DNA from: Cypionkella aquatica
GTDB lineage: Bacteria; Pseudomonadota; Alphaproteobacteria; Rhodobacterales; Rhodobacteraceae
Length of the DNA: 64,000 nucleotides
Direction of reading: 5' to 3'
Assembly: GCF_030161095.1 (NCBI RefSeq)
Contig: NZ_BSPP01000002.1
Span: forward strand, 124,001-188,000
In this document: one piece after another, positions 9,327 to 42,600 of the stretch
Layout of the letters: every line of letters begins with the position of its first letter
How positions within the stretch are numbered: position 1 is the first letter of the stretch
Made by a program: the position numbers and the translations under genes
The notes under the pieces: generated by a model
The model's database searches: none
The model's input: only the letters and a program-made list of their open reading frames with translations
What the model was told of the DNA's origin: nothing

Positions 9327-9333
9327 GGATATC

Positions 9334-18926: not shown

Positions 18927-18930
18927 GGGT

Positions 18931-24483: not shown

Positions 24484-24495
24484 CGCGGCCCCGCC

Positions 24496-25814: not shown

Positions 25815-25966
25815 ACACGGTCCTCCTTGCAGCCCAAGCGATTGGCCCCCGGCTGCGCGCAAAGGGGGCATTGGCTTGCATCGTTGCACGGCGAGGTGGT
25901 TATGGTCCAGTTCCTGCATTGTTTTTCTGGCTCCGCTGCTTGTCTTAATGACACGCTGCAGGGGCA

Positions 25967-26010
25967 TTTGGATGCAAAGCGAAATAAAATTCAGCGGGGC
26001 TGCATCCAAA
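25967..26010. repeat. Perfect 10-bp inverted repeat between sigma and DUF4394 genes
   Basis: TTTGGATGCA (25967-25976) and TGCATCCAAA (26001-26010) are exact inverted copies with a 24-base AT-richer centre. The dyad ends 68 bases before the DUF4394 ATG and could be a regulator site or promoter-proximal hairpin. The 264-base gap (25815-26078) contains no gene. Confidence 0.6.
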
Positions 26011-26078
26011 GCGGGGGGCTGGCGTGTCTTTGGGTCAAGGATGGCATGATGCCAGTCCAGCACTGGAAGGACCTTACG

Positions 26079-26867: not shown

Positions 26868-26876
26868 TCCCAATAG

Positions 26877-26909
26877 GCCCCGGTGCGGACGCCGTGCCGG
26901 GGCTTTCTT
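26877..26909 (+). terminator. Rho-independent terminator after the DUF4394 gene
   Basis: GCCCCGG (26877-26883) pairs with CCGGGGC (26897-26903), followed by TTTCTT at 26904-26909. It is the last host feature before the island's left junction. Confidence 0.82.
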
Positions 26910-26989
26910 GCAGCTTTGGTTGTGCTGCAATGAGGCGGTTAAGCCAGTGCCTGCCGCGCGCTGTATGATGATGATATGTCGGGAAAAAT

Positions 26990-27007
26990 TTGGTCGGAGC
27001 GAGAGGA
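26990..27007. repeat. Left attachment site (partial tRNA-Pro 3' end)
   Basis: This 18-bp direct repeat is identical to 42523-42540. It holds only the last nucleotides of the tRNA, in the same orientation as the intact gene, and it diverges immediately on both sides. Confidence 0.9.
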
Positions 27008-27022
27008 ACATAACCCGGTTTC

Positions 27023-27101
27023 ACTCAACCTTTTGATCTAACTCAACCTATTGACTACAAGCACTTTATAGTAAAATCAGTGTTCCGGTCGACTGTTCCG
27101 G
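27023..27101. repeat. Repeats inside the left island end (candidate recombinase arm sites)
   Basis: ACTCAACCTTTTGA (27023-27036) and ACTCAACCTATTGA (27041-27054) are near-identical direct repeats 18 bases apart. TGTTCCGG occurs at 27081-27088 and 27094-27101 and again near the right end at 42465-42472, with the variant TGCTCCGG at 42439-42446. Repeats shared by both ends are typical of integrase or excisionase arm binding. A weak promoter (TTGACT 27051, TAAAAT 27072) overlaps this region. Confidence 0.5.
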
Positions 27102-27136
27102 GCATGTGTCTCGGAGGGTGATCTTTGGAGAGTATT

Positions 27137-28960
27137 ATGGGCCACATTTCTCATCTGAGCAAGCGCGGTTCCGTCTACTATGCGCGCATTGATGTGCCAG
27201 AAGACCTCGTGACGGTCCTCAAAACACAGACGAGGAAGCTGTCGCTCAAAACTAAGGATCTGGGGCAGGCAAAGCTCAGACTATGGCCTGTGATTGCCGA
27301 GTGGCAACGCGAGTTCGACGATTTGCGCACCCGTCGGGCCTTGGTCGACGCGGACCGCGAACACGCCGTTTGGGATCATCACAAAGCAGTTTTGGAGCGT
27401 GATGAAGTTGAGCGGTCGCAGATGCCAGGAGAAGCAGGAATCGAAGCCATGAGAGCTGATTTGCTGGGGCGCGTGGAAAGGGGCGAGTTCAAGGGGATCG
27501 ACCCACTGTCCATCTTGGAGGCGACAATCGAATTGCAGGTTGCTCAGAGGGCCGGGGAGCTATCTACTACGGCTCGCACTGTCAAATTGACTGAGATGCG
27601 AAAGCACCTTGCGAAGGGCGAAACTGCGCTGATCGCACATGAAGTCGATGAATATCTGCGCGTGAATCGCTTGTTTGTGGAGCCTTCAACCCCTGACTGG
27701 GTGAGCCTCGCTCGGCGCATGATGCGTGCGGAGATCGACGCCTTGGAGCGCACGCTGGAGCGCGACCAAGGCGACTTCTCAGGGCTCCCCCGTGATGTGC
27801 TTGTGAAGCCACCAACTCTTGAACGACGAGCTACGGCTGAAATTGCTGTCGTTGGAGAAAGCATTGCTGAGGCAGTGAAAGCGTTTAAGAAGGAAAATCC
27901 GAGGAACGTCTCTAAAAGCCGAATGAACGAGTCATGTCGCGACATTGGCATCTTTATTGAGACGGTCGGCCCCGGGTTTCCTGTGGCGAAAATCAATAAA
28001 AAGCATGTTCGCGAGTGGAAGGCGCTTTTGATGAAGTATCCAGTGCGTGCGACAGAGGTTGTAGCGTTTCGCGGGATGAGCATTAGCCAGATCGTTATGG
28101 CGAATGATGAGCTAAAGCGGCAGGTGTTGTCCGACAGGACTGTGAATCGCTATCTGTCGAGCCTCTCTGCGTTCTGTTCATGGGCCGAGGTAAACGGCTA
28201 CATTCCGGCAAATCCCTGCACGGGTATGGCCTTGCCGAAGGAACGTCGAGCCACGACGTTGCCCTTCACGAGCGAACAGATGAACATCCTGTTCACATCG
28301 CCGTTGTTCGCAGGAGCACAGAGCGAGACCGAGTGGCGATTAATCTCACGGCCCGGAGATGTGTTGATCCGCGATCACCGCTTTTGGGTGCCGCTTATAA
28401 TGCTTTTCTCCGGTGCGAGGCCCGGAGAGATTGGTCAGTTCGCTGTCAGCGACTTGCGCCAACAGCAGGGGCAGTGGTTTATGCACATCACCATTGAGGG
28501 CGAAACCCACAGCGAGGGGAAGTCGGTCAAAACGCAAGGTTCAATGCGGGTAATCCCCATACATCCTGAACTAGTGCGCCTTGGGTTGCTCAAATACCAT
28601 GCCGAGCGTGTTGAAGCTGGAGACAAGCAACTTTTTCCTGGCGCAAAAAGGAATGAGCGAGGTCAGATGATGGCAGATTTCTCGCGTGAGTTTGGCAAGT
28701 ATCTGGCGCGCATTGGCCTGAAGTAAGCACCTGGCCTCAAGCTTTATTCCTTCCGGCATGGTGCCGCAGATGCTTTGCGAAGGGCAGGTTATTTGGACAA
28801 TCAGTTCGGCTTCATTCTGGGTCACACAGAACAATCCATGACTGGCCGCTACGGCATCATGCCACAGGGTATGCTGGAGCAGCGCGTAGAACTGGTAAAT
28901 GCGATTGCCTATCCGGGTCTCTTCCTCGATCATCTGGTGCCGTCTCTAAATGGAGGGTGA
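27137..28960 (+). pseudogene. Tyrosine recombinase/integrase interrupted by an in-frame TAA
   Basis: This site-specific integrase has an N-terminal DUF6538-like segment (GHISHLSKRGSVYYARIDVPEDL), a SAM-like core-binding region (about residues 235-385) and a catalytic domain with the first Arg in FSGARPGEIGQF (about residue 427). A TAA at 28724-28726 cuts it after GLK, yet the same frame continues uninterrupted to 28960 with the missing catalytic parts: LYSFRHGAAD (Arg-His), LGHT and the terminal Tyr in TGRYGIM. Without these, strand cleavage is impossible. The start at ATG 27137 follows GGAG. The full-length frame would be about 607 residues. A sequencing error at the stop cannot be excluded. 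Confidence 0.85.
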
Positions 28961-29034
28961 GCTGTCCAGAAGTCGCCGGAATTCTTAGGCAGGTGACGAT
29001 GTGTATATGGTGTTAGACTGCGTCGCGCTAAAGT

Positions 29035-30138
29035 TCAGATGTTCAGTTCTTCCTCAGACACAGTCATCAGCAGCTGCACCAAGCCCGTGTTGACGTAGTA
29101 GTTGTTTTTGCCTGCGCGGTGCTTCTCGACAAAGCCGTGTTCGGCCAACGTGTCGAGGTATCGGGCTGCGGTCTGGCGGGCGACTGTCAGATCGTTCAGG
29201 ACGTAGTCGATCCGTGTGTAGGGGTGGCGGAAGAGGTTGTTCAGCAGTTCCTGGCTGTAGAGCTTCGGCAACTCGGCGCGCATCCGGTGCTTGGCGGCGC
29301 GCATCTGATCGCCGATACCCTCGACCAGCCGTAGGGTCGTAGCCGCTGTTTCGGCCACGCCATCGAGCATGAAGATAACCCAGTCTTCCCACGCGCCGTC
29401 GTCACGGACTGCTTGAAGGAGCCGGTAATAGTCAGCCTTGTGCCGCGTAATGTGCCGCGACAGGTAGAGCACCGGAATATCCAGCAGGCCTGTCCGGGTC
29501 AGGTAGAGCACGTTCAGGATGCGGCCGATCCGGCCGTTGCCGTCCGGAAATGGGTGAATGCTCTCGAACTGATGGTGGATCAGTGCCATCTTGATCAGCG
29601 GATCCAGGCTGGACATCTCATCGTCGTTGATGAACCGCTCCAGCGCCGTCATCAGCGCCACGATCTCGTTCGGGTCCTGCGGCGGCACGAAGACGACCTC
29701 TCCGCTGCGTTCGTTCTTCAGCGCGGTGCCGGGGGTTGCGCGGAAGCCGTCGCTGCGGTCTTTCAGCAGCCTGAACATGTCGATCAAGGTCGAGTTCGGG
29801 ATCAGACCGCCAGTCTCTTGCAACCTGCTGTGACCGAGGCGCAGCGCGTCGCGATAGCGTGCAACCTCTTTGGCAGCCGGGGACGGGGGCTCGTCGGGAA
29901 ACACATCGGCCTGGAACAGCTCATCCTGGGTGGTGACAATGTTCTCGACCTCGGATGACGCCTTCGCCTCCTGAAGCGCCAGCGTGTCGATCAGGATGCC
30001 TTGGTTCGGGATCGTCTTAGCGTGGCCTTTGAGGTCTGCCAGTGCTCGGGACGCCCGGTTGAGCGCTTTCAGCACGGCCACTGTTTCCAGTGTCACATCA
30101 GGCGGCATGGTCGGCAGCTTGTATGTCGGTTTTAACAT
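29035..30138 (-). CDS. Fic domain AMP-transferase, class II, with C-terminal winged helix
   Basis: This 367-residue protein has the Fic core motif HPFPDGNGRIGR at residues 195-206 with catalytic His195. An N-terminal Fic_N region carries the autoinhibitory helix motif (S/T)-x3-E-(G/N), visible as SSEVEN at 61-66, which makes it class II. A winged helix follows at the C-terminus (QTAARYLDTLAEHGFVEKHRAGKNNYYVN). It would transfer AMP to a hydroxyl on a target protein when inhibition is relieved. The ATG at 30138 is chosen over a longer frame because the family start MLKPTYKLP fits. Role in the island (toxin, defence or regulation) is unknown. Confidence 0.88.
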   Translation of the reverse strand: MLKPTYKLPTMPPDVTLETVAVLKALNRASRALADLKGHAKTIPNQGILIDTLALQEAKASSEVENIVTTQDELFQADVFPDEPPSPAAKEVARYRDALRLGHSRLQETGGLIPNSTLIDMFRLLKDRSDGFRATPGTALKNERSGEVVFVPPQDPNEIVALMTALERFINDDEMSSLDPLIKMALIHHQFESIHPFPDGNGRIGRILNVLYLTRTGLLDIPVLYLSRHITRHKADYYRLLQAVRDDGAWEDWVIFMLDGVAETAATTLRLVEGIGDQMRAAKHRMRAELPKLYSQELLNNLFRHPYTRIDYVLNDLTVARQTAARYLDTLAEHGFVEKHRAGKNNYYVNTGLVQLLMTVSEEELNI

Positions 30139-30444
30139 GTTGCACTCGACGTGTTCGAAAATCTGGATTTTTCTAACATGACACAGTGAACATGTTCGCG
30201 AAAGGGCTGTTTGGATAACATGAAGGTCTGGCTCGGCGGGCCCATAACCTCCTGTCAACCAAAATGGTCTTTTTAGTTTTTCTTGCTCTGACAAATAGCC
30301 CGTCACCGACTAGCATTTCCTCATCTTTTGCTGAATTGCGGGGGTTGGTTGACACGGACGAACGCAATTTAGTTACGGTGTCAACCAGTTGGATCATAAA
30401 CGAACTGGTTTGTTGCGATAGCGCGGTGACGAATATGGATATGG
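30139..30444. promoter_or_regulatory. Repeat-rich intergenic region upstream of the Fic gene
   Basis: No credible gene is seen in these 306 bases. The palindrome GAACATGTTC lies at 30188-30197, and AACATGTT at 30134-30141 straddles the Fic start, so an AACATGTT-type operator controlling fic is plausible. Farther on, TGGTTGACAC (30346-30355) and GTGTCAACCA (30378-30387) form a perfect 10-bp inverted repeat. A third TGTCAACCA lies at 30253-30261, and AACCAGTT/AACTGGTT pairs at 30383-30410. Confidence 0.5.
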
Positions 30445-30657
30445 TTATGGTGTTGCTCTTGTTTTCACCTCCCAGTCCCTTCCGCGGAGCCTTCTCTGGT
30501 GATCCAACGCGCCCCGGAGCGCCTGCACAACTTCAAGGCTTGGTGGCGGCACGCTATCAAAGCAAATCACCCTAAGGAACTCGACCCAGCCTTCCTCTGC
30601 CTTGGTGAGCGAGCCATCTTGCGGCGCTACGAAGCCTTCGAACATCTTGCGTGTCAT
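30445..30657 (-). CDS. Small hypothetical protein coupled to an HTH regulator
   Basis: This 70-residue protein is of unknown family, mixed charge, with no signal or membrane segment. Its ATG overlaps the stop of the upstream HTH gene by four bases, which argues that it is translated. Two-gene HTH/small-protein modules of this size are common on islands as regulators or toxin-antitoxin-like pairs, but no toxin motif is visible here. Confidence 0.5.
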   Translation of the reverse strand: MTRKMFEGFVAPQDGSLTKAEEGWVEFLRVICFDSVPPPSLEVVQALRGALDHQRRLRGRDWEVKTRATP

Positions 30658-31052
30658 TTGCCGAAAATCCCGCGCAGTGCTGTGCGGGACCGGGCGGTGA
30701 CAAGCGGATCACTGTCTTCGGTGGCGCTGCGGATTTCCTCGATCCAAGCCCGTTCGTTCGCGCTGATCGGCGTTCCCATAATCTCGACGATCGCAGTTGC
30801 AGCGGTGTCACCGACAGCCTGACCGAGTGCAAGCCGCAGAAGGCGTGCCGGGTCGCAGTCCAGTGCAAGCGCGAGGGCCGGAACACGGTCGAGTGGCAGC
30901 TTGGTGCTGCCAGAGCGCAGCATCGAGAGAACGTTTGCATTCAGAAACCCGGCCTCATGCGCGATCTCGGCCTGAGTCTTGGGCTTCAACTCGAGGATGC
31001 GCACCTGGAGGAACTTCGCGAGCGCGGTGTCTTTGTGCGGTTTGATGGTCAT
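30654..31052 (-). CDS. Helix-turn-helix DNA-binding protein (XRE-like)
   Basis: This 132-residue protein has an N-terminal helix-turn-helix at about residues 25-60 (KTQAEIAHEAGFLNANVLSMLRSG followed by KLPLDRVPALALALDCD), the pattern of Cro/CI-type regulators, and a charged C-terminal half without a known domain. AGGACGAG precedes the ATG. It reads away from a symmetrical promoter region with a candidate operator, consistent with autorepression. It is translationally coupled to the small protein gene downstream. Confidence 0.78.
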   Translation of the reverse strand: MTIKPHKDTALAKFLQVRILELKPKTQAEIAHEAGFLNANVLSMLRSGSTKLPLDRVPALALALDCDPARLLRLALGQAVGDTAATAIVEIMGTPISANERAWIEEIRSATEDSDPLVTARSRTALRGIFGK

Positions 31053-31081
31053 GATCTCGTCCTGTTATCAATTTTCATGAC

Positions 31082-31137
31082 CTATTTATAGCGGTGGATG
31101 CGGTGACATGACCGCCGTAAACATCTGTTATAAATAG
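31082..31137. promoter_or_regulatory. Divergent promoter with mirrored -10 boxes and central dyad
   Basis: CTATTTATA (31082-31090) and TATAAATAG (31129-31137) are exact inverted copies that give a TATAAAT-type -10 element on each strand. Between them GCGGT (31100-31104) and ACCGC (31111-31115) form a dyad around GACATG. The arrangement fits one operator controlling the HTH gene on the minus strand and a small plus-strand frame. Confidence 0.6.
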
Positions 31138-31147
31138 AAAATACTGT

Positions 31148-31408
31148 ATGCCGAGCAGCTGGATGAAGTCAGAGGTTGTGTCAGAAGTTGAACTCCAACT
31201 CGTCCCTTTCGCTGTCGTTATCGGCGCAGCTGCTGAGGTTATCATCGTGAAGCAAGCAACCGAGAACTCGATGCCAAGACCGGGACCCGTGGCGTCAAAG
31301 GCCACGAAGCCAGAAGAGATCACTCTGCCCACACCTGAATATGCGGACATGAAAAGTCCTGTAGTTGCAGTGGATGAAATTGAGGAACTCGAGCTGAAAG
31401 CTGCCTAA
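31148..31408 (+). CDS. Small hypothetical protein, possibly leaderless
   Basis: This 86-residue frame starts 11 bases after the plus-strand TATAAATAG box, with no ribosome site, so a leaderless or nearly leaderless mRNA would be needed. It is followed 22 bases later by a strong terminator in the right place. The sequence shows a hydrophobic stretch (LQLVPFAVVIGAAAEVIIV) and an acidic C-terminus. No family is recognised. Support is positional only. Confidence 0.4.
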   Translation: MPSSWMKSEVVSEVELQLVPFAVVIGAAAEVIIVKQATENSMPRPGPVASKATKPEEITLPTPEYADMKSPVVAVDEIEELELKAA

Positions 31409-31429
31409 ACTCGATCTTCGCAGCATGAC

Positions 31430-31462
31430 AAAAGCTCGCCGGTTCAGATCCGGCAAGCTTTT
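31430..31462. terminator. Bidirectional-looking terminator
   Basis: AAAAGCTCGCCGG (31430-31442) pairs with CCGGCAAGCTTTT (31450-31462) with one mismatch and a 7-base loop. T-rich sequence lies on the plus-strand exit. It isolates the HTH module from the nuclease operon. The remaining bases to 31609 hold the presumed operon promoter and an ATCAAGC/GCTTGAT dyad (31517-31539). Confidence 0.75.
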
Positions 31463-31609
31463 AATTTCAATACTTTCACGAGTCCTGTTTGCCATCACCC
31501 GAACGCGAAAAGACAGATCAAGCACCGATAGCGCTTGATTTTGGGCAGCGCGCTGCGAATAATCAATCAGAGCGGCACGCTCGGTGTAGTGACTCGCCCG
31601 ATTTGATAA

Positions 31610-32881
31610 ATGGTGTTTCACAGTTTGGCTTTCCGCTTCATCCATACCGCTGATTTGCATCTAGACTCGCCCTTGGTCTCGCTCGCGCTGCGCAATGCTG
31701 ATCTTGCTGATCAGGTGGGTGTGGCAAGCCGTTCGGCATTGACCAGGATTGTCGACCTGTGTCTGGCCGAGGCCGTTGATGCGCTGCTGATTGCGGGTGA
31801 TCTTTGGGATGGCGGGCTGAGTTCGGCCAAAACTCCACGGTTTCTGAAGCAGGAATTGCTGCGGTTGGACGAGGCGGGCATTCGCTGTTTTATCATCCGG
31901 GGCAATCACGATGCGATCTCAAAGGTCACGCGCGAGCTTGATCCGCCTAGCGGGGCGCGGGTGTTTGGGCCGAAGGCCAAGACCGAAACGTTCGAGGCAG
32001 GCGGCCATCTGATCGCGGTGCATGGCGTCAGCTTTGCCGAGCCTGTGGCACCAGGCAGCCTGTTGCCACTGTATCCTGTGGCGATGGCGGGGGCGTTTAA
32101 CATCGGCATGATGCACAGCAGCCTGAACGGCAGCGTCGGGCATGATGTCTATGCGCCGTGCAGCGTCGCTGATCTGGACGCGCATGGGTATGATTATTGG
32201 GCGCTTGGCCATATTCATCGCAGATCAGAGCATTGTGGCCGTGCAACTGTGGTGATGCCCGGTATCCCGCAGGGCCGTGATATTGGTGAGGCTGGGACTT
32301 GTTCGGTGACGCTAGTGACGGTGGATGATGCGGGCGCTGTGGTGACTGAACAGTGCAGTGTTGCGGCGCTGCGGTTTGATCGGCTGCGCATTGATCTGGC
32401 AGATATGTCTGACTGGGCTGAGGTGATTGAGGCATTGGATGCCGCATTGCGTGACATCGCGCATGTAACACGCCACGAGGCGTATCTGGTGCTGCGCCCG
32501 ATGCTGATGGGGGTGACGCCGCTTGCGTGGCGGATTGCCCGTGATCTGGACCGCTTGACAGAGGAAGCCCATACCATCGCGGCCTCGGTTGGGGGGATCT
32601 GGATCGACAAGTTGGAGAATGGCACCACCTCGCAGGGGGCCGGGATCACCAGTCAGTTGCCTATCGATCTGGTCGGGATCGTTATGGCTGATCTGCCAAA
32701 TGATCCGGCACTTCTGGCGGCCTTGGCCGAAGCTGCGCGCGTGTTGATGCACGATTTGCCGCCCGAGTTACGCGATCTCTTGGGCGATGATGCCGCCGCT
32801 GTTGCCGCCGCGAGTGGTTTGCTGTTGGCGGAGGGCAGTGTGCAGATCGTCGCCCGGCTTGGCGCGGGTGAGGTTGCCTGA
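31610..32881 (+). CDS. Mre11/SbcD-like DNA repair metallophosphoesterase (YhaO-like)
   Basis: This 423-residue calcineurin-like phosphoesterase has all nuclease motifs: D15 and H17 (HTADLHLD), GDLWD at 63-67, GNHD at 98-101, H169 and GHIH at 200-203. A C-terminal capping/partner-binding part follows. It resembles the YhaO branch of the SbcD/Mre11 family, whose members pair with a Rad50-like ATPase. That partner is the next gene, whose ATG overlaps this stop by one base. Predicted activity is Mn-dependent exo/endonuclease on DNA ends. No clear ribosome site precedes 31610; a TTG at 31625 is an alternative. This is the first gene of a three-gene operon on the island. Confidence 0.88.
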   Translation: MVFHSLAFRFIHTADLHLDSPLVSLALRNADLADQVGVASRSALTRIVDLCLAEAVDALLIAGDLWDGGLSSAKTPRFLKQELLRLDEAGIRCFIIRGNHDAISKVTRELDPPSGARVFGPKAKTETFEAGGHLIAVHGVSFAEPVAPGSLLPLYPVAMAGAFNIGMMHSSLNGSVGHDVYAPCSVADLDAHGYDYWALGHIHRRSEHCGRATVVMPGIPQGRDIGEAGTCSVTLVTVDDAGAVVTEQCSVAALRFDRLRIDLADMSDWAEVIEALDAALRDIAHVTRHEAYLVLRPMLMGVTPLAWRIARDLDRLTEEAHTIAASVGGIWIDKLENGTTSQGAGITSQLPIDLVGIVMADLPNDPALLAALAEAARVLMHDLPPELRDLLGDDAAAVAAASGLLLAEGSVQIVARLGAGEVA

Positions 32882-35800
32882 TGCGTTTGGAAGGTTTGGA
32901 TCTGACCCGTTATGGCCGCTTTACCGAGGCAAAGCTGGCGTTTCCCGCACCTGCCCCCGGTGGCGCTGATCTGCATGTGATCTTTGGCCCGAACGAGGCC
33001 GGCAAATCGACGCTGTTCTCGGCTTGGCTGGATTTCCTTTACGGTATCCCGCTGCGTAGCCGTTACGACTTCAAACATGCCGGGCCCACGATGCGGATCG
33101 GCGCACAGATCAGCCATGCCGGGGGTGTGCTGGATCTGGCGCGGCAAAAGCGCACCGGCTCCAGTTTGCTGGATGCGCATGAGGCTGTGGTTCCCGATAC
33201 TTTGTTGCAATCGGCGTTGGGCGGGCTTTCGCGCGAAGGCTATATGGCGATGTTTTCGCTGGATGATGACACGCTTGAAAAGGGCGGCGAGGGTATTCTT
33301 GCCAGCCGCGGCGATCTGGGCGAGATGCTGTTTTCGGCCAGCGCCGGGCTTGCCGGACTTGGCCCGCAGCTTGCGGCAATCCGGGCCGAGTTAGACGGCT
33401 TTCACCGCGCCGGGGGCCGCAAGGGCGTGGTGTATGAGGCAAAGACCCGGCTGGCCGAGTTGGATCGCCAGCGGCGCGCGCTGGATACCTCGGCTGCGAC
33501 CTATCAGCGCTTGGGGCGCGAAGTGGTTGTGGCCGAGCGGGATTGGACCACTGCACGCGATGCCGAAGCGGCAATCAGCCAGGCCCTGCGCGATCTGCAA
33601 GATGCGCTGGCCGTGTTGCCGTTGCGCGACCGTCTGGCGCGGCTAGAGGCCGATCATGCCCCGCTTGCGCATTTGCCTGACGCTGCTGATGCGGTGGTGC
33701 AGAACCATCAGGCGCTGGATGAGGCCCGCAACGCATTGGCCAGCCGGATCGCTGACCGTGCCGCGCGGATCGAGACATTGGCTGCCCGCAGCGCCGCGTT
33801 GACGCCAGACGCCGCGATCTTGGGCGTGCGGGATGCAATCTTGTCGGCTGATGCGCTGCGTTCGGCGCATGACACCGCCGTGCAGGATTTGCCGCGGCGT
33901 CGCGATGAGGCGGCAAGCGTCGAGACGGCGTTGCGCGAAACGCTTGTGCGTTTGGGTCGGCCGGGTGCTGCTGTTGAGCCGCTGTTGCTTGACCCGGTGC
34001 GGCTTAGCGCGTTGCGTGGCTTGCTGGCCGAACGCTCGGGCGTCGTCACCGCTGTTGAGCGTGCGAGGGGCGAGGCCGCGAATGCCAAGGCCAAACTGGA
34101 AGCTGCGCAAACCCGTCTTGGTGATCCTGGCACACCCGAGGATCTTGCGGGTTTGCAGGCGTTGCTGACGCGGTTTCGCACGGCAGATCCAAGTGGTGTT
34201 TTGCGTATGGCGTTGCGTGACCGAGACGCCTGCGCGGCGCAGATGCAAGCGGCGCTACAAACGCTTGTGCCGTGGCAGGATGAAGCCGATGCGCTGGCTG
34301 CGTTGGCGGTTCCAGCCAGTTGGCAGGTTGAGGCATGGGTTGCTGATGCGGAACGCACACGCCAAGCGGTGACGGATACCGAGCGCGCGCTGCAACAGGC
34401 GCAATCAGCCCATGCCAGTGCCGAGGCGTTGGCAGGGCAGGCGGCTGAGGTAGCAGCGGGAGTCACTTTAGCTGAGGCGGCTGCGGCGCGCAGCCAGCGC
34501 GAAGCCCACTGGGCCGCCCACCGCGCTGATTTGAAGTCTGCAAGTGCCGATGCCTTTGAAGCAGCACTGCGGCAGGATGATCAGATTGCTGCACTTTTGG
34601 CCGACACGATGGCGCGGGCGCGGTTGGGCGCGGCAGATGCCACGCGGCGCGTCGAGCTGGCGGCGGCGGTGTCTGCGGCGCAAGATCAGTTGGCGCAGGC
34701 CTACGCTGCACGCGATGCGCTTACCGCGACGCTTGACGCCACCTGTGCCGCGCTTGGTTTGCCGGGGGCCGCGTTGGCAGACTTGCGCCGCTGGCTTGAT
34801 CTGCGGATTGCAGCGCTGGGTGTGCGCGCGGCGCTGCGGCAGGCCGAGGATACTCTGGCCCGCGCTGAGGCAGATTTGCGGGCTGCCACATCGGCGTTGC
34901 AGGCCACACTTGGGCTTGCCCCCGATCACGGCGGTTTTGATGCGCTTTGGGCGAGTGCCACCGCACGGCTGGACGCCTCCGACAAGCACCGCGATGCGCG
35001 CCGACAACTTTCCGAATTGCAGGCTGATCTGCAAGACCGCGCAAAAGATCACGCCACCGCAGAGGCCAATGCAACGGCATGGCTGGCCGCGTGGCAGACC
35101 GCCTGTGCCAGCACTTCGCTTGCAGGGCTGCCCGCTGACAGCGCAGGCTTGGGCAATATGCTTGATCTTCTGGATGCGTTGGGGCGCGATGCAGCGCTGC
35201 TCGCCGGATTGTCGGACCGCATTGGCAAGATGGAGCAGAACCGCGCAGGCTTTCGCGATGCAGTGGCGCTGATCCTGTCGGCGATCCAACTGCCGCCTGA
35301 AACACCTTGGGTGGAACTGCCTGCGCGTCTGCGCCAGGCCGAAGATGCCAGCACAAAGCTGGTCGAACTGTCGCGCAATCTGGCCGATGATCGTGACGCG
35401 CAGGGGCAAGATCAGCGGCAGGCTGAAGCCAATGCCCTGGCGTTAAGCGCATTGGGCGCGGCCGTTGGCTGGGCAGAAGGTGGTGGCAGCCTTGGCAGCC
35501 ATGTCGCGGATTGCCAGCGCGCAGCGCGGTTGCGACATGATGTTATCGGCCTGCGCGCTGATCTTGCCAACCGTCCAGAGCCCACCGAGGGCTTGGATAT
35601 CAACGCCTTGACAGCACAAGAGGCTGCGACACAGGCAGCGTTGGAGTTGCGGCACAGCGAAACGCAGGCCGCTTTCGCCCTCCTACTTGAAGCAAAGCGT
35701 CAACTAAGCGCGGTGGGCGGCGATGATGCCGTGGCGCGCCTTGAAGCTGAACGTGCCAATCTGCTGAACGCACTGCGCGACGGCGCGCAGGCGCATCTGG

Positions 35801-36270
35801 CCCGCCGCTTTGGTCTGATCGCGGTGGAGCAAGGCCTGTGCCGCTACCGCGACAGCCACCGCAGCGCCATGCTTGATCGCGCCTCGGCGGCGTTTTACAG
35901 CTTAAGCCGGGGCGCTTATACTGGCCTTGCGGCCCAACCCGATGGCGCAACCGAGGTGCTGGTGGCTTTGTCTGCTGCGGGTGGTGGGAAACTGGCCGCC
36001 GATCTGTCAAAGGGCACGCGGTTTCAACTTTACCTCGCGCTGCGGATCGCGGGATATCACGAGTTGGCGCAAAGTCGCCCCACCGTGCCGTTCATCGCCG
36101 ATGACATCATGGAAACCTTTGATGACGACCGGGCCGCTGCGGCCTTCACTTTGCTGGCCGAGATGTCGCGCTCGGGACAGGTGATTTACCTCACCCACCA
36201 CCGCCACCTCTGCGATATCGCCCGCGCTGCTTGTCCCGACGTGCGGGTGACTGATTTGCAAGCCCTCTGA
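32881..36270 (+). CDS. Rad50/SbcC-like AAA ATPase with long coiled coil (YhaN-like)
   Basis: This 1129-residue SMC-like ATPase has Walker A GPNEAGKST at residues 36-44. Long Ala/Glu/Arg-rich coiled coils from about 170 to 1000 follow, then a C-terminal signature-like segment (LSKGTRFQLYLALRIAGYHE near 1042) and Walker B with D-loop (FIADDIMETFDDDRAA near 1073), and a switch His in YLTHHRHL. This is the YhaN arrangement, in which the ATPase ends embrace DNA and gate the YhaO/Mre11 nuclease. It is translationally coupled to the nuclease gene and 22 bases from the helicase gene, so the three products probably act together. The zinc-hook Cys-x2-Cys of classic Rad50 is not evident. Confidence 0.88.
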   Translation: MRLEGLDLTRYGRFTEAKLAFPAPAPGGADLHVIFGPNEAGKSTLFSAWLDFLYGIPLRSRYDFKHAGPTMRIGAQISHAGGVLDLARQKRTGSSLLDAHEAVVPDTLLQSALGGLSREGYMAMFSLDDDTLEKGGEGILASRGDLGEMLFSASAGLAGLGPQLAAIRAELDGFHRAGGRKGVVYEAKTRLAELDRQRRALDTSAATYQRLGREVVVAERDWTTARDAEAAISQALRDLQDALAVLPLRDRLARLEADHAPLAHLPDAADAVVQNHQALDEARNALASRIADRAARIETLAARSAALTPDAAILGVRDAILSADALRSAHDTAVQDLPRRRDEAASVETALRETLVRLGRPGAAVEPLLLDPVRLSALRGLLAERSGVVTAVERARGEAANAKAKLEAAQTRLGDPGTPEDLAGLQALLTRFRTADPSGVLRMALRDRDACAAQMQAALQTLVPWQDEADALAALAVPASWQVEAWVADAERTRQAVTDTERALQQAQSAHASAEALAGQAAEVAAGVTLAEAAAARSQREAHWAAHRADLKSASADAFEAALRQDDQIAALLADTMARARLGAADATRRVELAAAVSAAQDQLAQAYAARDALTATLDATCAALGLPGAALADLRRWLDLRIAALGVRAALRQAEDTLARAEADLRAATSALQATLGLAPDHGGFDALWASATARLDASDKHRDARRQLSELQADLQDRAKDHATAEANATAWLAAWQTACASTSLAGLPADSAGLGNMLDLLDALGRDAALLAGLSDRIGKMEQNRAGFRDAVALILSAIQLPPETPWVELPARLRQAEDASTKLVELSRNLADDRDAQGQDQRQAEANALALSALGAAVGWAEGGGSLGSHVADCQRAARLRHDVIGLRADLANRPEPTEGLDINALTAQEAATQAALELRHSETQAAFALLLEAKRQLSAVGGDDAVARLEAERANLLNALRDGAQAHLARRFGLIAVEQGLCRYRDSHRSAMLDRASAAFYSLSRGAYTGLAAQPDGATEVLVALSAAGGGKLAADLSKGTRFQLYLALRIAGYHELAQSRPTVPFIADDIMETFDDDRAAAAFTLLAEMSRSGQVIYLTHHRHLCDIARAACPDVRVTDLQAL

Positions 36271-36292
36271 TTTGCGTTGAACTGGAGCCGAA

Positions 36293-39200
36293 ATGTCCAC
36301 CGATGTGACCGATGCCACCAAAGCCGAACAACAGCTTGCGGAGCCCAAGCCGCTGGTCGTCCTAAAGGCGGTTTTGGCGGGCAAGGTGAACTTTGCGTCC
36401 GCGCAAAACGGCGTTTCGGTGCTTCGCAGTTTGCGGCTGGTGAATGAGGGGACGGCGGCGGCGGTCAATGTGACGCTAAGGTTAACGGCCACGCCTGCGA
36501 TTCTGCGCGATAAATCCTGGCGGATCGACCGGATCGCACCGGGGACGGGGATTGATCTGGTCGATCTCGAAACGCCGCTGGACACTGCAATTTTGGGCGG
36601 GCTGGATGAGGCCGAAATCGGCCAAATCAGTTTTCAAATCAGCATTGACGGTCAGGTGACCGATCAAATTCAGCATCGTATTGAACTCCTTGCCCGCGAT
36701 GAATGGGGCGGCTTGGCCGAGATGGATAACATCCTAGCGGCCTTCGTCTCGCCCAACCAGTCGGCGGTGGCGCGACTGTTGAAAGAGGCATCGCGGTTGT
36801 TAGAGGCGGCAGGGCATTCAGGGTCACTCGAAGGCTATCAGTCAGGTGATCCTATGCGGGTCTGGATGATCGCAGGCGCGATCTGGTCGGCGGCGACCGG
36901 GCTGGGGCTGACCTATGCCGTGCCGCCTGCCTCGTTTGAACGGATGGGCCAAAAGGTGCGCGACCCCGAACGGATCGTGGCCGAGGGTCTTGCCACCTGT
37001 TTGGACAGCACCTTGTTGCTGGCTGCGGCGTTCGAGGCGGCGGGGCTGAACACCGCGATCTTGTTTTCGCACGGCCACGCTTGGGTGGGTGTCTGGCTGG
37101 TAGCCCGCGATTTTGGGCGGCTGGTGGAGCCCGATGTGGTTGCAGTGCGCAAAGCGGCAGCTGCACGAGATTTCGTGCCGCTGGAAACCACGCTTTTGAC
37201 CAAACGCCCTAGCACGGGGTTTGAGGCTGCCGTTGATGCGGGCCGGGACCGGCTGTCTGAGGCGCGCGAGACCGAGTTCATTCAGGTCGTCGATATCAAC
37301 CGCGCGCGGGCGGCGCGGATTCGCCCGTTGGCAAGCCACCATGTGGCGCAAGAGGCGAGTAATAATGATGAAGCTGTGGCCGCTGCTGCCCTGCCACGCC
37401 CACTTGATTTGGGCCGTCTGCCCGGCGAGTTGATCGAAATTGCGCCCACCACCGCTTTGGGTCGGATTGAGCGCTGGCAGCGCAAGTTGCTGGATCTGTC
37501 ATTGGCAAACCGCTTGCTGAACTTCAAGGATACCAAGCTGGCGATCCCGATGATTTGCCCGGATGTTTCCGGGCTGGAAGACCAGCTTGCCGATGGCGCG
37601 GTGTTTAGGTTGCTGGCGCTGAAGGATGAACATGCGGTGTCTGGCCGCGATTTGGCCGCTGAGGAAGCGCGTCAGATTGAAGCCGGGTTGGCGCGCGATG
37701 CGATGGCGCGGGGGCAGGTTGCCGTGCCGCTGACCAGCCGCGACATGATCAACCGTCTGACCGAGCTTTACCGCAAGGCGCGCAGCGATGCCGCTGAGGG
37801 TGGCACCAATACCCTGTTTCTGGCGGTAGGTTTTCTGCGCTGGAAACGCACTGACAGCGACCCGCGCCATTACCGCGCGCCGTTGCTCTTGCTGCCTGTC
37901 AAGCTGGAGCGTCGCTCCGCGCAATCAGAGTTCCGGCTATCGCAGCTTGAAGATGAGGTGCGCATCAACGCCACATTGCTTGAATTTCTGAAGCGCGATT
38001 TTGAATTGCGGATGCCCGAGTTGGAATGTGAATTGCCGCGCGATGCCAGTGGTTTGGACATTCCGCGCATTTTGCAGATTTTACGCCATAAAGTCCGGGA
38101 TGTGGCTGGGTTTGAGGTGCTGGAGGATTGCGCACTTTCGACCTTTTCGTTTGCGAAATATCTGATGTGGAAAGATCTTGTCGACCGCACCGACAACTTG
38201 CGCGAAAGCCGCTTGGTGCGGCATCTGGTAGACAGCCCGACCGAAAGTTTTGCAGGCAGCACCGGGGTGATGCCACAGCCTGCCGACATTGACCGCAAAC
38301 ATGCGCCGGCCGATCTGCTGGCACCTCTGCCCGCCGACAGCTCGCAACTCGCGGCGGTGATGGCGGCAGCGCAGCAGCGCGATTATGTGCTGATCGGGCC
38401 GCCCGGCACCGGCAAAAGCCAGACGATCACCAACATCATTGCGGATCAGCTGGGCCGGGGCCGCACCGTGCTGTTCGTGGCCGAGAAGGCCGCCGCATTG
38501 GATGTGGTGCATCGGAGGCTAGAGCGGCATGGATTGGGCACGGCGGTGTTAGAGCTGCACTCGAACAAAGCTGACCGCAAGGCGGTTTTGACGCAACTTG
38601 GCCGTTCGTGGGATCGCGCCAGCACGCAGGGGGCTGCGGATTGGGTGCGCGTCACCGATGATCTGCGGGTGACGCGTGATCAGTTGAACGGTTATGTCGC
38701 GGCGCTGCATTCACCCGGAACGCAGGGCTTCAGCGTTTATCAGGCGATTGGGCGGGTGGCGAAGCGGCCTGCGATGTTATCTTTGGCGTTCCCGAATAAG
38801 GATTGCCACGATCAGGATACTTGGCTGCGACTGCGCGCTCTGGCTGCGGAACTGGGTCAGCGGCATCGGATTGTGGCTGATCTGAGCACGGGTGGTCCGC
38901 TGGCGCTGGTGGCTCCGGGGGAGTGGTCATTTGGCTGGCAGGATGCGTTTCTTGCGGCGGCACGTCGTCTGCGGGTCACGCTGCACGAAACGCAAGAAGC
39001 ACGGCTCGGGTTGGCGCAGCAGTTGGGATATCCCGCCGCAGTTGTCGGTTTGGCTGATGTTGTGGCGGCATTGGGCAAAGTGCCTGCCGCCCGTTTGGGC
39101 CACCCTGCGGTATCAGAGATTGCTTTGAACGCGGCCCCGGCGTTGCGCGCAGAACTGGCACCATTTGCCGAAGCTTTGCGGGCCTGCCGTGATCAACGGC

Positions 39201-42193
39201 AGGCCTTGGCTGCCAGTTATACGGATGATGTGATCGCCGATATGCCTTTGGAAGCGCTGGATATTCAATGGCGCGAGGCGCAAACCAAGATGTGGCCCCT
39301 GGCCGGCATGGCGAAGACCAAGCTGCAAAAACTGCTGCAATCCTATGCGCACGGCGGCACCGCTGATCCGGTTACGGATATTGCCGCGCTTAAACGGTTG
39401 CTGCGGGCGCAGGCGCTGATCGTCAAGTCCACGCTGTCTGCATTGCCCGGTTTTGCAGGCGAACGCACGGATATAGGTGCCATGTCTGCTGCGCTGGAAG
39501 AGGCCGACGGTTTTGCCCGGCTTGAAGCAACACTGACAGACGCAGGCCTGCCGCGCGCCCGGTTGATGGACCAGCGCGCAAATCTAATGCAGCGTGATGG
39601 TGGCACATTTGAGCCGCTGTTGCGCCGTCTGGTTGCCGCAGAGACCGCGCTCGCCGCCGATGTTTCGGGGTTCACGGCTGCAGGGGGGGATGCAAACGTC
39701 AGCGCTGATCAGTTGATGCCGCACCTTTTGGCCATCGAAGCGTTGCAGGCGCGGCTGCCCGATTGGATGAAATGGTTGGCGACGCGCGGGCAGGCAGCGG
39801 CACTGGGGTTGCAGCCGATCATCGACGCGCTTCAAGCAGGCGCGGAGATCGGCGCGGCAGAGGCTGCGTTTGAAAGCGCCTATATGGCGTGGTGGCTGCG
39901 CCTTGCTATGGATGCCGCGCCGATGTTGCGCAGTTTTGCGCATTGGGAACACGATGCGTTAATCCTGCGGTTCCGCGCGTTGGACGATGCGATGACCGGG
40001 ATGGCTTCGGCGGAAGTGATGCGGCGGCTTGGCAATGATCTGCCGACGCGCGATTCCGTGCCGCGCAATTCCGAACTCGGCATCCTTCGGCATCAACTTG
40101 GGCTGCAACGCCCGACAGCAGCCATCAGGGGTCTGATCAGCCAGATGCCGACAACCTTCGGCAAACTCGCTCCTTGTGTGCTGATGTCGCCTTTGTCGGT
40201 TGCGCAATATCTGCCTGCGGGCCAGGCGCAGTTTGATCTGGTGATCTTCGACGAGGCTTCACAGATTTCCACGTGGGATGCGATTGGCGCGATTGCGCGC
40301 GGCAAGCAGGCGATCATCGTCGGTGATCCGCGTCAATTGCCGCCGACCAATTTCTTTGGCCGCAGCGATGATGGTGCCGACGGCGATGACCTTGCAGAAT
40401 ACGAAAAGGATATGCCCTCGATCTTGGATGAAGTCTCGGCCTCCGGTGTGCCGACGCAACTGCTGAACTGGCACTACCGCAGCCGGGATGAGGCCTTGAT
40501 CGCGTTTTCCAACCATTTTTACTATGGCGGCAGCCTTGTCACCTTCCCGTCGCCAGATGCCTCGGGCAATGCGGTCGAGCTGCACAAGATCGCTGGCACC
40601 TATATGCGCGGCACCGGGCGCACCAACCCTGATGAGGCCCGTGCCATCGTGCAGATGATCCGCAAGCGGCTGGACGATTGGCTGAAACTGCCGGAAAAAG
40701 ATCGCCCGACGCTGGGGGTGATCACCTTTAACGCGCAGCAGCAAAGCCTGATCCTTGATCTTCTGGATGCCGAACGCCAAGCCAATCCGGCGCTGGAATG
40801 GTTCTTTTCAGATGATCGTGAGGAGCCGTTGATCGTGAAGAACCTTGAGAATATCCAAGGTGATGAGCGCGATGTGATGCTGTTCTCGATCACCTTCGGG
40901 CCGGATGGTGCGGGTAAGCTCGCGATGAATTTCGGCGCGCTGAATGGGGACGGTGGTGAGAAACGCTTGAATGTTGCTGTGACGCGGGCGCGGGCAGAGT
41001 TGCATGTGTTTGCCTCGATTACCGCAGATCAGATTGACCTGACGAGGACAGGCGCGCGTGGGGTCAAAGATCTTAAAGCCTTCCTCGATTTCGCAGCACG
41101 CGGCGCGATTGCGCTATCGGCACAAGACAAAGGCTCTGTGGGCCCGGTTGAATCGCCGTTTGAAGAGGCGGTGTTGGCTGCCCTTACCGCGAAGGGATGG
41201 GAGTTGCACAGCCAGATCGGCGTTTCCGGTTTCCGCATTGACCTTGGCGTGCGGCATCCCGACCATGCTGGAACCTGGCTTGTGGGCGTGGAATGCGATG
41301 GCGCACGCTATCACAGCTCTGCAACCGCGCGCGACCGTGATCGGATCAGGCAAGCCGTTCTGGAAGGTCTTGGTTGGTCGATCTTGCGCATTTGGTCCAC
41401 CGACTGGTTCCGCAACCCTGTGGCGACGGCTGATCGGGTGGATGTGCTGCTGCGTGAGGTGTTGGAGAGGGATCGCCAGCGCAGACTGGCAGTGGTCGAA
41501 GTCGAAGTGACCGAAGCTGACAGCTTAGGCGACGCTGCACAGATCACGCCTGATCTGCGGCTCGACGACATCGCCACTGAAACGCCGACCGCACCTATGG
41601 AGTCCAAACCAATTTTGCCGTCTATGCCGGTGACAGTCTGCATGCCTGAGTCGGCCGCTGCAGTTCAGTTTGCGTCGGTTGATCTACCTGTCGCTCAGCC
41701 TGAGATGGAGCCGCTGAGCCAGCATACGCTACAGCCAGACAACTTTTTCGACGAGGGCTATTCCGCGACGCTGGCGGCGCTGGTGCTCAAACTGGTCCAG
41801 ACGCAAGGTGCCATGACAGAGGCGGCCTTGGCACGCAGCGTCGCCCAGTTGCATGGTTGGCAGCGCACGGGTGGCCGCATTCAGGCAAGGGTAGCGACGT
41901 TCCATAGGTTACTCGACCAGCAGGATGAAAATGGCACGGTATTCTTCTGGCCAAAGGGCGGTGTCGTGCCGCGCGTTCCCTTCGCCGGGCTTGGAGGGCG
42001 AAGTCTTAGAGAGGTGTCCCGGACCGAAATCGCCTGGATGGAAGACCGGCACACGGCGCGTATTTCGGCGTCAGTTGATCCAGTTTTGGAACTATCACGG
42101 CTGCTGGGAATCGCGAGGCTGAGCCAAGACGCGCGCAGCTATATTGATGACTGTAGATATTGGAGGACCGAAGGTTGCGCCACCCTGACATGA
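36293..42193 (+). CDS. DUF4011-SF1 helicase-Vsr-like nuclease-DUF3320 protein (Hhe-like)
   Basis: This is a very large protein of 1966 residues. From the N-terminus: an Ig/adhesin-like beta region (20-125); a transglutaminase-like segment (about 225-290) with Cys in TCLDST and His in HGHAWVGVW; DUF4011 from about 385 (WQRKLLDLSLANRLLNF); and Walker A GPPGTGKSQT near 703. The helicase blocks continue with Walker B VIFDEASQIS near 1317, GDPRQLPPT near 1343, ENIQGDERDVM near 1519 and NVAVTRAR near 1559. A Vsr/PD-(D/E)xK-like nuclease lies at 1620-1705 (FRIDLGV, GVECDGARYH, ILRIWSTDWF), and a DUF3320-like winged domain at 1815-1900. DUF4011-helicase-Vsr proteins have been reported as anti-phage genes (Hhe). 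It is the last gene of the operon. Confidence 0.88.
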   Translation: MSTDVTDATKAEQQLAEPKPLVVLKAVLAGKVNFASAQNGVSVLRSLRLVNEGTAAAVNVTLRLTATPAILRDKSWRIDRIAPGTGIDLVDLETPLDTAILGGLDEAEIGQISFQISIDGQVTDQIQHRIELLARDEWGGLAEMDNILAAFVSPNQSAVARLLKEASRLLEAAGHSGSLEGYQSGDPMRVWMIAGAIWSAATGLGLTYAVPPASFERMGQKVRDPERIVAEGLATCLDSTLLLAAAFEAAGLNTAILFSHGHAWVGVWLVARDFGRLVEPDVVAVRKAAAARDFVPLETTLLTKRPSTGFEAAVDAGRDRLSEARETEFIQVVDINRARAARIRPLASHHVAQEASNNDEAVAAAALPRPLDLGRLPGELIEIAPTTALGRIERWQRKLLDLSLANRLLNFKDTKLAIPMICPDVSGLEDQLADGAVFRLLALKDEHAVSGRDLAAEEARQIEAGLARDAMARGQVAVPLTSRDMINRLTELYRKARSDAAEGGTNTLFLAVGFLRWKRTDSDPRHYRAPLLLLPVKLERRSAQSEFRLSQLEDEVRINATLLEFLKRDFELRMPELECELPRDASGLDIPRILQILRHKVRDVAGFEVLEDCALSTFSFAKYLMWKDLVDRTDNLRESRLVRHLVDSPTESFAGSTGVMPQPADIDRKHAPADLLAPLPADSSQLAAVMAAAQQRDYVLIGPPGTGKSQTITNIIADQLGRGRTVLFVAEKAAALDVVHRRLERHGLGTAVLELHSNKADRKAVLTQLGRSWDRASTQGAADWVRVTDDLRVTRDQLNGYVAALHSPGTQGFSVYQAIGRVAKRPAMLSLAFPNKDCHDQDTWLRLRALAAELGQRHRIVADLSTGGPLALVAPGEWSFGWQDAFLAAARRLRVTLHETQEARLGLAQQLGYPAAVVGLADVVAALGKVPAARLGHPAVSEIALNAAPALRAELAPFAEALRACRDQRQALAASYTDDVIADMPLEALDIQWREAQTKMWPLAGMAKTKLQKLLQSYAHGGTADPVTDIAALKRLLRAQALIVKSTLSALPGFAGERTDIGAMSAALEEADGFARLEATLTDAGLPRARLMDQRANLMQRDGGTFEPLLRRLVAAETALAADVSGFTAAGGDANVSADQLMPHLLAIEALQARLPDWMKWLATRGQAAALGLQPIIDALQAGAEIGAAEAAFESAYMAWWLRLAMDAAPMLRSFAHWEHDALILRFRALDDAMTGMASAEVMRRLGNDLPTRDSVPRNSELGILRHQLGLQRPTAAIRGLISQMPTTFGKLAPCVLMSPLSVAQYLPAGQAQFDLVIFDEASQISTWDAIGAIARGKQAIIVGDPRQLPPTNFFGRSDDGADGDDLAEYEKDMPSILDEVSASGVPTQLLNWHYRSRDEALIAFSNHFYYGGSLVTFPSPDASGNAVELHKIAGTYMRGTGRTNPDEARAIVQMIRKRLDDWLKLPEKDRPTLGVITFNAQQQSLILDLLDAERQANPALEWFFSDDREEPLIVKNLENIQGDERDVMLFSITFGPDGAGKLAMNFGALNGDGGEKRLNVAVTRARAELHVFASITADQIDLTRTGARGVKDLKAFLDFAARGAIALSAQDKGSVGPVESPFEEAVLAALTAKGWELHSQIGVSGFRIDLGVRHPDHAGTWLVGVECDGARYHSSATARDRDRIRQAVLEGLGWSILRIWSTDWFRNPVATADRVDVLLREVLERDRQRRLAVVEVEVTEADSLGDAAQITPDLRLDDIATETPTAPMESKPILPSMPVTVCMPESAAAVQFASVDLPVAQPEMEPLSQHTLQPDNFFDEGYSATLAALVLKLVQTQGAMTEAALARSVAQLHGWQRTGGRIQARVATFHRLLDQQDENGTVFFWPKGGVVPRVPFAGLGGRSLREVSRTEIAWMEDRHTARISASVDPVLELSRLLGIARLSQDARSYIDDCRYWRTEGCATLT

Positions 42194-42522
42194 AGGCGGC
42201 GTTGCTGTTGTGGTATCTACCACCGGTCGCCTCAGCGTCTTATCTTTGCGCGCTTGGAGGAGGTCCGTTGTGTCAGCCCAAAGCCCCTGGATCGTGGTCA
42301 TTGGTCGTTCGAAAACAATGGTCAGCGGATGGTCGATGTGAACTCACTGAAGGCGCGATGGAGAAAATCCAGAGCGAAAGTATCATTAGTCCGAATAGCG
42401 ACTCCAAAAAGGTGCTTCTTCATTTACGGGCATAGCACTGCTCCGGGCCTATGGGCAGAAAAAGTGTTCCGGGGGCAATCAGGTTGTATTTTCAAGGCAT
42501 TGATTTTTCGGGATTTTTTGAA
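42194..42522. other. Right end of the island without a gene
   Basis: About 330 bases between the helicase stop and the right attachment site hold no supported gene. Reading frames here lack ribosome sites, and one runs through the tRNA. TGCTCCGG (42439-42446) and TGTTCCGG (42465-42472) repeat a motif of the left end. The last 40 bases are T-rich. Confidence 0.6.
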
Positions 42523-42540
42523 TTGGTCGGAGCGAGAGGA
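42523..42540. repeat. Right attachment site within tRNA-Pro
   Basis: This 18-bp repeat is identical to 26990-27007 and covers CCA, the discriminator base, the 3' acceptor strand and the start of the T arm of the tRNA on the minus strand. One base at 42523 lies outside the tRNA. Confidence 0.9.
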
Positions 42541-42600
42541 TTCGAACCTCCGACCCCCTGCTCCCGAAGCAGGTGCGCTACCAGACTGCGCTACGCTCCG
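42524..42600 (-). tRNA. tRNA-Pro(CGG)
   Basis: This 77-nt tRNA on the minus strand has an acceptor stem CGGAGCG/CGCTCCG, discriminator A and encoded CCA. The anticodon arm is CCTGC-TTCGGGA-GCAGG, giving anticodon CGG for codon CCG. The T arm GGAGG-TTCGAAT-CCTCT is standard. It serves as the island's integration target and remains intact. Confidence 0.97.

Follow-up and report, generated by a model that had tools for sequence, protein, structure and literature searches.

We found that an Mre11/Rad50-like gene pair lies directly upstream of a gene for a full-length member of the anti-phage family ProA on an island of Cypionkella aquatica, and that such a pair recurs near long-form ProA genes in other genomes and on plasmids. 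The window, by which we mean the whole stretch of DNA analysed, is 64,000 nt long (GCF_030161095.1, NZ_BSPP01000002.1 positions 124,001-188,000, forward strand). The helicase of this operon is already catalogued as the anti-phage protein ProA, and what is new is the pair that accompanies it. We tentatively favour, with a confidence that stops a little short of even, the explanation that this is an island-borne anti-phage operon in which ProA is the effector and the pair is a facultative Mre11-Rad50-like (MR) module for sensing and processing DNA ends, recruited several times. In what follows, P0001, P0002 and P0003 are the Mre11-like, Rad50-like and ProA proteins of the window, and L and G numbers denote loci and genomes, respectively.

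Three intact proteins encoded by the operon

The first gene (31610-32881, + strand) encodes a 423-aa Mre11/SbcD-like metallophosphoesterase with intact catalytic motifs, the second (32881-36270, +) a 1129-aa Rad50/YhaN-like ATPase with intact Walker A and Walker B motifs, and the third (36293-42193, +) the 1966-aa ProA. The first two genes overlap by 1 base, and a 22-base gap precedes the ProA gene. The open frames bear out the earlier note, which had placed three real and intact genes here with this spacing, and Pfam recovers the domain composition that it had claimed: Metallophos in P0001, AAA_27 in P0002, and DUF4011, parts of an SF1 helicase, MTES_1575 and DUF3320 in P0003. For the Mre11-like gene the start at 31610 is uncertain, since conservation among relatives sets in some residues downstream.

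The alignment of P0001 shows D15, H17, D64, D67, N99, H100, H169, H201 and H203 kept in 58-61 of 61 relatives, and its metal motifs are thus intact, as had been proposed. Its PDB sequence relatives are Mre11 or SbcD entries, and it scores 55.6 bits against the SbcD model TIGR00619, below the cut-off of 77.65. In P0002, G36, N38, E39, G41, K42 and D1074/D1075 are kept in all 65 relatives and T44 in 62 of them. This protein passes the YhaN-type model PF13514 (AAA_27) in its N-terminal part with 217.3 bits against a cut-off of 22, and has no PDB sequence relative at E <= 0.01. Canonical Rad50/SbcC has a CXXC zinc hook, whereas P0002 lacks it; among its 65 aligned rows the hook is present in two (L017 and L158). 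Together, the two proteins carry the phosphoesterase and Walker A/B motifs of Mre11-Rad50/SbcCD. No PADLOC or NCBIfam defence-family model fits the pair convincingly. When four pair proteins were tested in NCBIfam, no partner model matched beyond the SbcD/Mre11/Rad50 families, and none resembling a ProB or ProC. The NCBIfam accessions neighbouring that of ProA were rejected as its partners: NF058532 is an unrelated enzyme and NF058534 is HyoA.

P0003 is a member of the ProA family: it matches NCBIfam NF058533 over the full profile (1-1903 of 1903, residues 33-1942) with 2058.5 bits against a cut-off of 1500. The anti-phage label of ProA is that of NCBI's family name. The earlier note had likened the helicase to Hhe (NF042953; PADLOC Hhe); membership of that family is rejected, as the score is 770.1 bits against a cut-off of 2000 with the best stretch at 1152-1745. 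The PADLOC model PDC-S37, which is given without a cut-off, matches with 1139.6 bits (profile 9-1528 of 1550) and covers residues 391-1953 only. Phages were rejected as carriers of ProA (1 record).

Pfam places DUF4011 at 37484-37990 (residues 398-566), the second half of the SF1 helicase, AAA_11/AAA_12, at 40220-41014 (residues 1310-1574), the MTES_1575 Vsr-like nuclease at 41159-41440 (residues 1623-1716) and DUF3320 at 41738-41884 (residues 1816-1864), all on the + strand. DUF3320 overlaps a winged helix-turn-helix according to the accessible part of PMC3710099. The helicase Walker A motif GPPGTGKS (38396-38419, +, residues 702-709) is invariant (82/82), as are K708 and D1320/E1321; E1667 and D1669 are kept in 81/82 and D1650 in 78/82. 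Judging by conservation among relatives, the residues singled out beforehand for mutation (H100, ATPase K42 and nuclease D1650) had been correctly assigned.

The earlier domain account of this protein omitted the N-terminal ~390 residues ahead of DUF4011, where the best Pfam match reaches only E 0.068. An AlphaFold model of residues 24-390, built from 41 sequences, has a mean pLDDT of 90.7 and predicts a beta-sandwich (36362-36691, +, residues 24-133) followed by an alpha/beta core (36698-37327, +, residues 136-345); modelled alone, the core reaches a mean pLDDT of 96.1. In the model C236 stands at the start of a helix and H262 at the start of a strand. Of 83 aligned rows, 82 have both residues and one has a gap there, and D or E is found at 281 in 81. 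A Foldseek search of the PDB with residues 24-390 returned mostly transglutaminases 2/3 and factor XIII, and also beta-galactosidases and others, all as weak matches (E 1e-3 or worse). The core alone matched PNGase, 3kd4 (a putative protease), Rad4/XPC, 3isr (a putative cysteine protease), LapG and menin, together with axonemal chains and some unrelated or unrecognised proteins, at E 3.9e-3 or worse. Several of the top matches of the core have what we take to be transglutaminase-superfamily folds. As neither search gave a match below E 1e-3, we describe the core as probably transglutaminase-like. Its conserved Cys-His-acid set suggests an active enzyme and, with it, a possible second activity.

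Island position and recurrence of the pair

The operon forms the end of an inserted segment, at most 18 kb long, that adjoins a tRNA-Pro(CGG) gene (42524-42600, - strand) at its 3' end, the end which faces the operon. The insertion is evident from the empty site in three of five congeners examined (L237, L238 and L241), where the match to the window runs to 24481-24483, 53-145 bases follow, and the sequence continues from 42523 on. Of the other two, L239 has the right part of the island (31569 onward) at 93%, where its contig ends, and L240 matches only right of the insertion site. The earlier note was therefore right to place the operon near an island boundary, which we find at 42522/42523. 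The segment missing from the three congeners (24484-42522) holds sigma/anti-sigma, DUF4394, tyrosine-recombinase-like and SoFic genes and the ProA operon. Because no direct repeat of the tRNA 3' end occurs within the window at up to 3 mismatches, the left border of the island is known only approximately, and 24484 is the edge of the stretch common to the congeners. The DUF6538/tyrosine-recombinase-like protein encoded at 27125-28726 (+), whose XerC/XerD matches of 28-30 bits are under the cut-offs, is possibly the island's integrase. Among 15 genomes of the genus, ProA is found over its cut-off in 2 and a P0002-like Rad50 in 5.

The insertion also contains a SoFic-type Fic adenylyltransferase gene (29035-30306, -; 387 bits in PADLOC, and 381 against the NCBI cut-off of 550), a possible second defence gene. 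Elsewhere in the window, a cluster of palindromic TGTCCCC-GGGGACA-type repeats (families D1 and D2, spaced 27-28 bases) lies outside the insertion at 18905-19086. A predicted tRNA-Pro(TGG) at 14177-14273 (-), with its anticodon at position 41, is longer than usual at 97 bases. Repeated segments ~80% alike (D3 and D4) at 61973-63329 are presumably tandem peptide deformylase paralogues.

For the comparison of loci we took the best 80 of 442 ProA relatives, of which 79 loci were fetched, a sample that leans to the window's kin; 16 plasmid regions of our choice among 463 plasmid records with a match; and samples of 394 family genomes and 387 class genomes. Gene calls were simple longest-frame picks. 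Over all sources, long-form ProA loci flanked by 4 kb or more on each side have a pair in 26 of 74 cases, partial remains in 2 and none in 46, counting the Mre11 stub of L210 as none; in L067, one of the 26, the pair is 3.6 kb off. Dropped from this count were the window itself (L001) and L192, L258 and L259 (duplicates of L019, L037 and L038), and the truncated L249 was scored as 'other'. In the genome samples a pair lies near 9 of 17 long-form ProA genes, or 8 of 16 without the window. It is found in G000 (the window), G018, G318, G170, G221, G250, G626, G754 and G784; ProA stands without a nearby pair in G134, G023, G211, G107, G416, G522, G432 and G641. L249 and L253, with no usable flanks, were excluded from the 17. 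In six of the 17, four with a pair and two without, one flank is shorter than 4 kb, and the figure for those with both flanks of at least 4 kb is 5 of 11. If the P0002-type pair alone is counted, it adjoins ProA in 3 of the 11 family genomes whose ProA passes the cut-off, a figure that is too low because other Mre11/Rad50 families are uncounted in it.

As a control, other DUF4011 helicases have a pair nearby in 0 of 14 cases with both flanks and in 0 of 23 with any flank, a small group to which L249 does not belong. Three of the 14 (L254-L256), and L200, whose flanks are incomplete, pass the NCBI ProA cut-off, but the long-form HMM scores them as another subfamily. Against 0/14, Fisher's test gives p 0.008 for 26/74, 0.009 for 5/11 and 0.020 without the window, and p 0.046 if L254-L256 are moved to the ProA side; these values are uncorrected for kinship, and loci of one clade are not independent. 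From the density of pairs (66 in 394 genomes, with 4 Mb per genome assumed), ~0.0008 pairs would be expected per 20 kb. The Mre11/Rad50-like pair thus recurs near long-form ProA, with a small control and modest significance.

Four arrangements of pair and ProA were found. The pair is upstream on the same strand in the window, L002-L005, L057, L205, L247 and L248; upstream on the opposite strand in L029, L043, L062, L202 and L257, and in L027, where a 342-aa frame intervenes; downstream on the same strand in L184, L031, L207-L209, L212 and L250; and downstream on the opposite strand in L019, L038 and L261. Among the window's kin, the window-type pair is upstream on the same strand in L002-L005, L008, L010, L013, L015, L017 and L018. 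The Rad50 gene of L008 and the Mre11 gene of L010 are each in two pieces, and contig ends cut the pair in L006 and L014. The same type of pair occurs in other lineages or places (L019, L029, L043, L057 and L062) and in plasmid regions L205 (upstream) and L202 (divergent). Other Mre11/Rad50-like pairs adjoin ProA in L031 and L038, lie beyond one frame in L027, and stand at the distance given above in L067. A second operon type, ProA-Mre11 (374 aa)-Rad50-like (877 aa), is carried by plasmids L207, L208, L209 and L212, and recurs in L211 and L213 with its Rad50-like gene broken beside IS21 genes. Plasmid regions L201, L203, L204, L206, L214, L215 and L216 have no pair, and L210 has an Mre11 stub only. 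On CP015322, CP080523 and CP017947, looked at for Rad50 only, Rad50 relatives are close to ProA by their coordinates. We also observed that rhizobial plasmids L205, L211, L212 and L213 have ThiF, multiubiquitin, E2 or Mov34/MPN genes ~8 kb or less from ProA (4 of the 16 plasmid regions opened).

A P0002-type HMM gives 826-1318 bits for complete genes of its kind, 585 for L205 and 29-54 for L027, L031, L038 and L207, and the Rad50-like protein of L038 matches LmuB and SbcC-type models. Judged by sequence, at least three Rad50 subfamilies occur beside ProA. On a tree of 106 ProA proteins, 81 of them labelled, parsimony requires a minimum of 14 switches between having and lacking the pair, with gains and losses pooled, and a minimum of 16 changes of arrangement; L050, L058 and L215, and rows under the length or score limits, were dropped from the tree in addition to those named above.

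Loose coupling and its explanations

The coupling between the pair and ProA is loose. A P0002-like Rad50 is present in 66 of 394 family genomes. In 57 regions around P0002-like matches, ProA is beside the pair in 2; in the remaining 55 the pair is without ProA, and no constant third partner was seen there. Regions opened from P. yeei, Thioclava and Klebsiella plasmids (one each: L201, L203 and L206) have ProA without a pair. In the ProA tree, the pair-less L007/L016, L009/L020/L024, L011 and L021 are nested within the operon clade, and in the Rad50 tree the stand-alone pairs L141-L144 are nested within the ProA-linked clade. Decay is also separate. In L012 a fused remnant (9093-10139), made of an Mre11-like start and a Rad50-like end, directly precedes ProA. 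In L285 (7761-16466; congener G403) the operon is on another contig, and the pair is open at ~85% identity while ProA is rearranged. From the pair that is mostly without ProA, the ProA that is often without the pair, and this separate decay, we conclude that neither requires the other. The earlier note had made its link between pair and helicase depend on their adjacency not being rare. The answer is mixed: adjacency is not rare, with 26/74 loci and 9/17 genome-sample ProA genes, but the pair also stands alone and ProA is often without it.

Within the operon clade (10 loci), identities of ProA and Rad50 correlate at r 0.97, a value reached by 0 of 2000 permutations. The two genes appear to have been inherited together in this clade, and joint inheritance alone would be expected to give such a correlation.

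Two further observations concern related helicases. In L186 (2503-12649) the gene after a close relative of the L019 pair, in the same orientation, encodes a 1754-aa protein other than ProA that combines an SF1 helicase, an MTES_1575 nuclease and a GreA/GreB-like C-terminus. The pair may therefore assist a broader range of helicase-nucleases. A family of shorter DUF4011 helicases (L262-L272 and L278; ~1550-1690 aa), which score under the ProA cut-off, is found repeatedly in related genomes, where the pair is lacking; its match to the ProA profile begins near position 330-360.

We propose that ProA is the effector of the operon and that the MR module is an accessory which would improve or redirect it, not an obligatory subunit. 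Mre11-Rad50 recognises DNA ends and processes them by endonucleolytic cutting (PMC12977600 and PMC10586767, in the parts open to us). From this and from the biochemistry of helicase-nucleases, an economical scheme would have the pair prepare DNA ends as starting points for degradation by ProA. The hookless YhaN-type Rad50 would bind the DNA of an invading or replicating phage at its ends, or at ends that are blocked or branched, and the metal-dependent Mre11 would nick or resect the bound ends. ProA would then load on the exposed strand, its SF1 motor would translocate, and its Vsr-like nuclease would degrade the DNA. The N-terminal transglutaminase-like domain may add a regulatory or second effector activity. 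Recruitment of the module to ProA would have happened several times and would have drawn on different Rad50 subfamilies. We infer a complex of the three proteins, this order of action and an anti-phage role for the pair.

A different explanation has a substantial, if lesser, chance of being correct: two independent modules may share islands, so that ProA would be a complete single-gene defence, the pair a separate repair or defence locus, and the operon a result of island assembly. The frequency of each without the other, their separate decay in L012 and L285, the modest contrast between ProA and other helicases (p 0.009-0.046) and the want of an NCBIfam partner model for the four pair proteins all speak for it. 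However, it sits less well with the 0/14 of the control helicases, and with the overlaps and short gaps beside ProA in several arrangements and Rad50 subfamilies. Also against it is the cluster count over 81 loci, in which the Mre11 cluster occurs at 20 and the Rad50 cluster at 17, and the next cluster at 7.

We consider two other readings improbable. In one, MR and the helicase-nuclease would sense and process phage ends, ATP-driven translocation would activate the transglutaminase-like cysteine enzyme, and host or phage proteins would be cleaved or cross-linked, so that infection is stopped. If true, an end-resection machine would be coupled to a protease or crosslinker, and we know of no such combination. 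In the other, the pair would protect the host as an antidote-like or tolerance module that repairs chromosomal breaks made by the ProA nuclease. Mre11-Rad50 complexes do process broken ends in repair (PMC12977600, accessible part), and the optional presence of the pair could fit a tolerance module; but G134, G023 and G107 have ProA and no P0002-like match genome-wide, and L285 retains its pair despite a broken ProA.

That the pair is an ordinary host double-strand-break repair locus (an SbcCD/YhaON orthologue), in the island by chance, is the least likely of all: the SbcD/Mre11 catalytic motifs are present as it would have them, but the pair is patchy in the family and the genus (66/394 and 5/15), is part of inserted DNA that three of the five congeners examined lack, scores under the SbcD cut-off and has relatives on plasmids.

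An MR module that assists ProA, as we favour, yields a testable hypothesis for ProA, namely that DNA ends are its trigger or substrate; the literature searched offered no mechanism for ProA. A ready comparison is provided by natural loci in which ProA has the pair, lacks it, or has pairs of different Rad50 families.

Comparison with known systems

In the literature searched, with preprint servers and most subscription journals outside its scope, we found no description of the three-gene composition, nor, in the texts as far as they were accessible, of the composition of ProA or Prometheus systems. A 'Prometheus' system is listed by users of DefenseFinder in the accessible portions of PMC12629846, PMC12390725 and PMC13356809, and from its name ProA is perhaps this system. 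The window protein is the same as ProA in being a full-length member of NF058533; the difference is the Mre11/Rad50 partner, for which no partner model was matched in NCBIfam. Hhe has DUF4011, an SF1 helicase and a Vsr-like nuclease in common with P0003, and differs by the score and best stretch given above. In the available part of PMC10250203 a DUF4011 gene serves as a conserved flanking gene for a defence hotspot in P. aeruginosa.

Giant HEPN-transglutaminase-SF1 helicase-Vsr-type REase-wHTH proteins were described in 2013 and predicted to act in defence (PMC3710099, accessible part). Like ProA, they combine a transglutaminase-like domain, an SF1 helicase, an MTES_1575 REase and a DUF3320 wHTH in one chain. 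They have HEPN, whereas the window ProA has no HEPN match in Pfam, and that part of the paper mentions no Mre11/Rad50 pair.

Lamassu resembles the window pair in having a Rad50-like coiled-coil ATPase, LmuB, as its likely defence sensor (PMC10586767, accessible part), and Rad50-like neighbours of ProA in L038, L027 and L067 match LmuB models. The window pair differs in that an Mre11-like protein is present and LmuA and LmuC are absent; P0001-P0003 gave no Lmu match in PADLOC at E <= 1e-3, and we do not count the operon as a Lamassu system.

In its working the operon may resemble end-resection systems. In archaea the genes for Mre11, Rad50, HerA and NurA share an operon, and eukaryotic MRN/MRX acts with Dna2 (PMC12977600, in its accessible part). 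In both, MR is encoded with, or acts before, a helicase and a nuclease that extend end processing, and by analogy the window operon would work in a similar way. This is a likeness of working and not of membership: P0001-P0003 have no HerA or NurA match in Pfam, the SF1 motor and Vsr-like nuclease are fused in ProA, and the operon is patchy and found on islands and plasmids. Should the link prove functional, the kind of partnership between Mre11-Rad50 and a helicase-nuclease by which archaea and eukaryotes resect DNA ends would have been assembled repeatedly in bacteria for defence.
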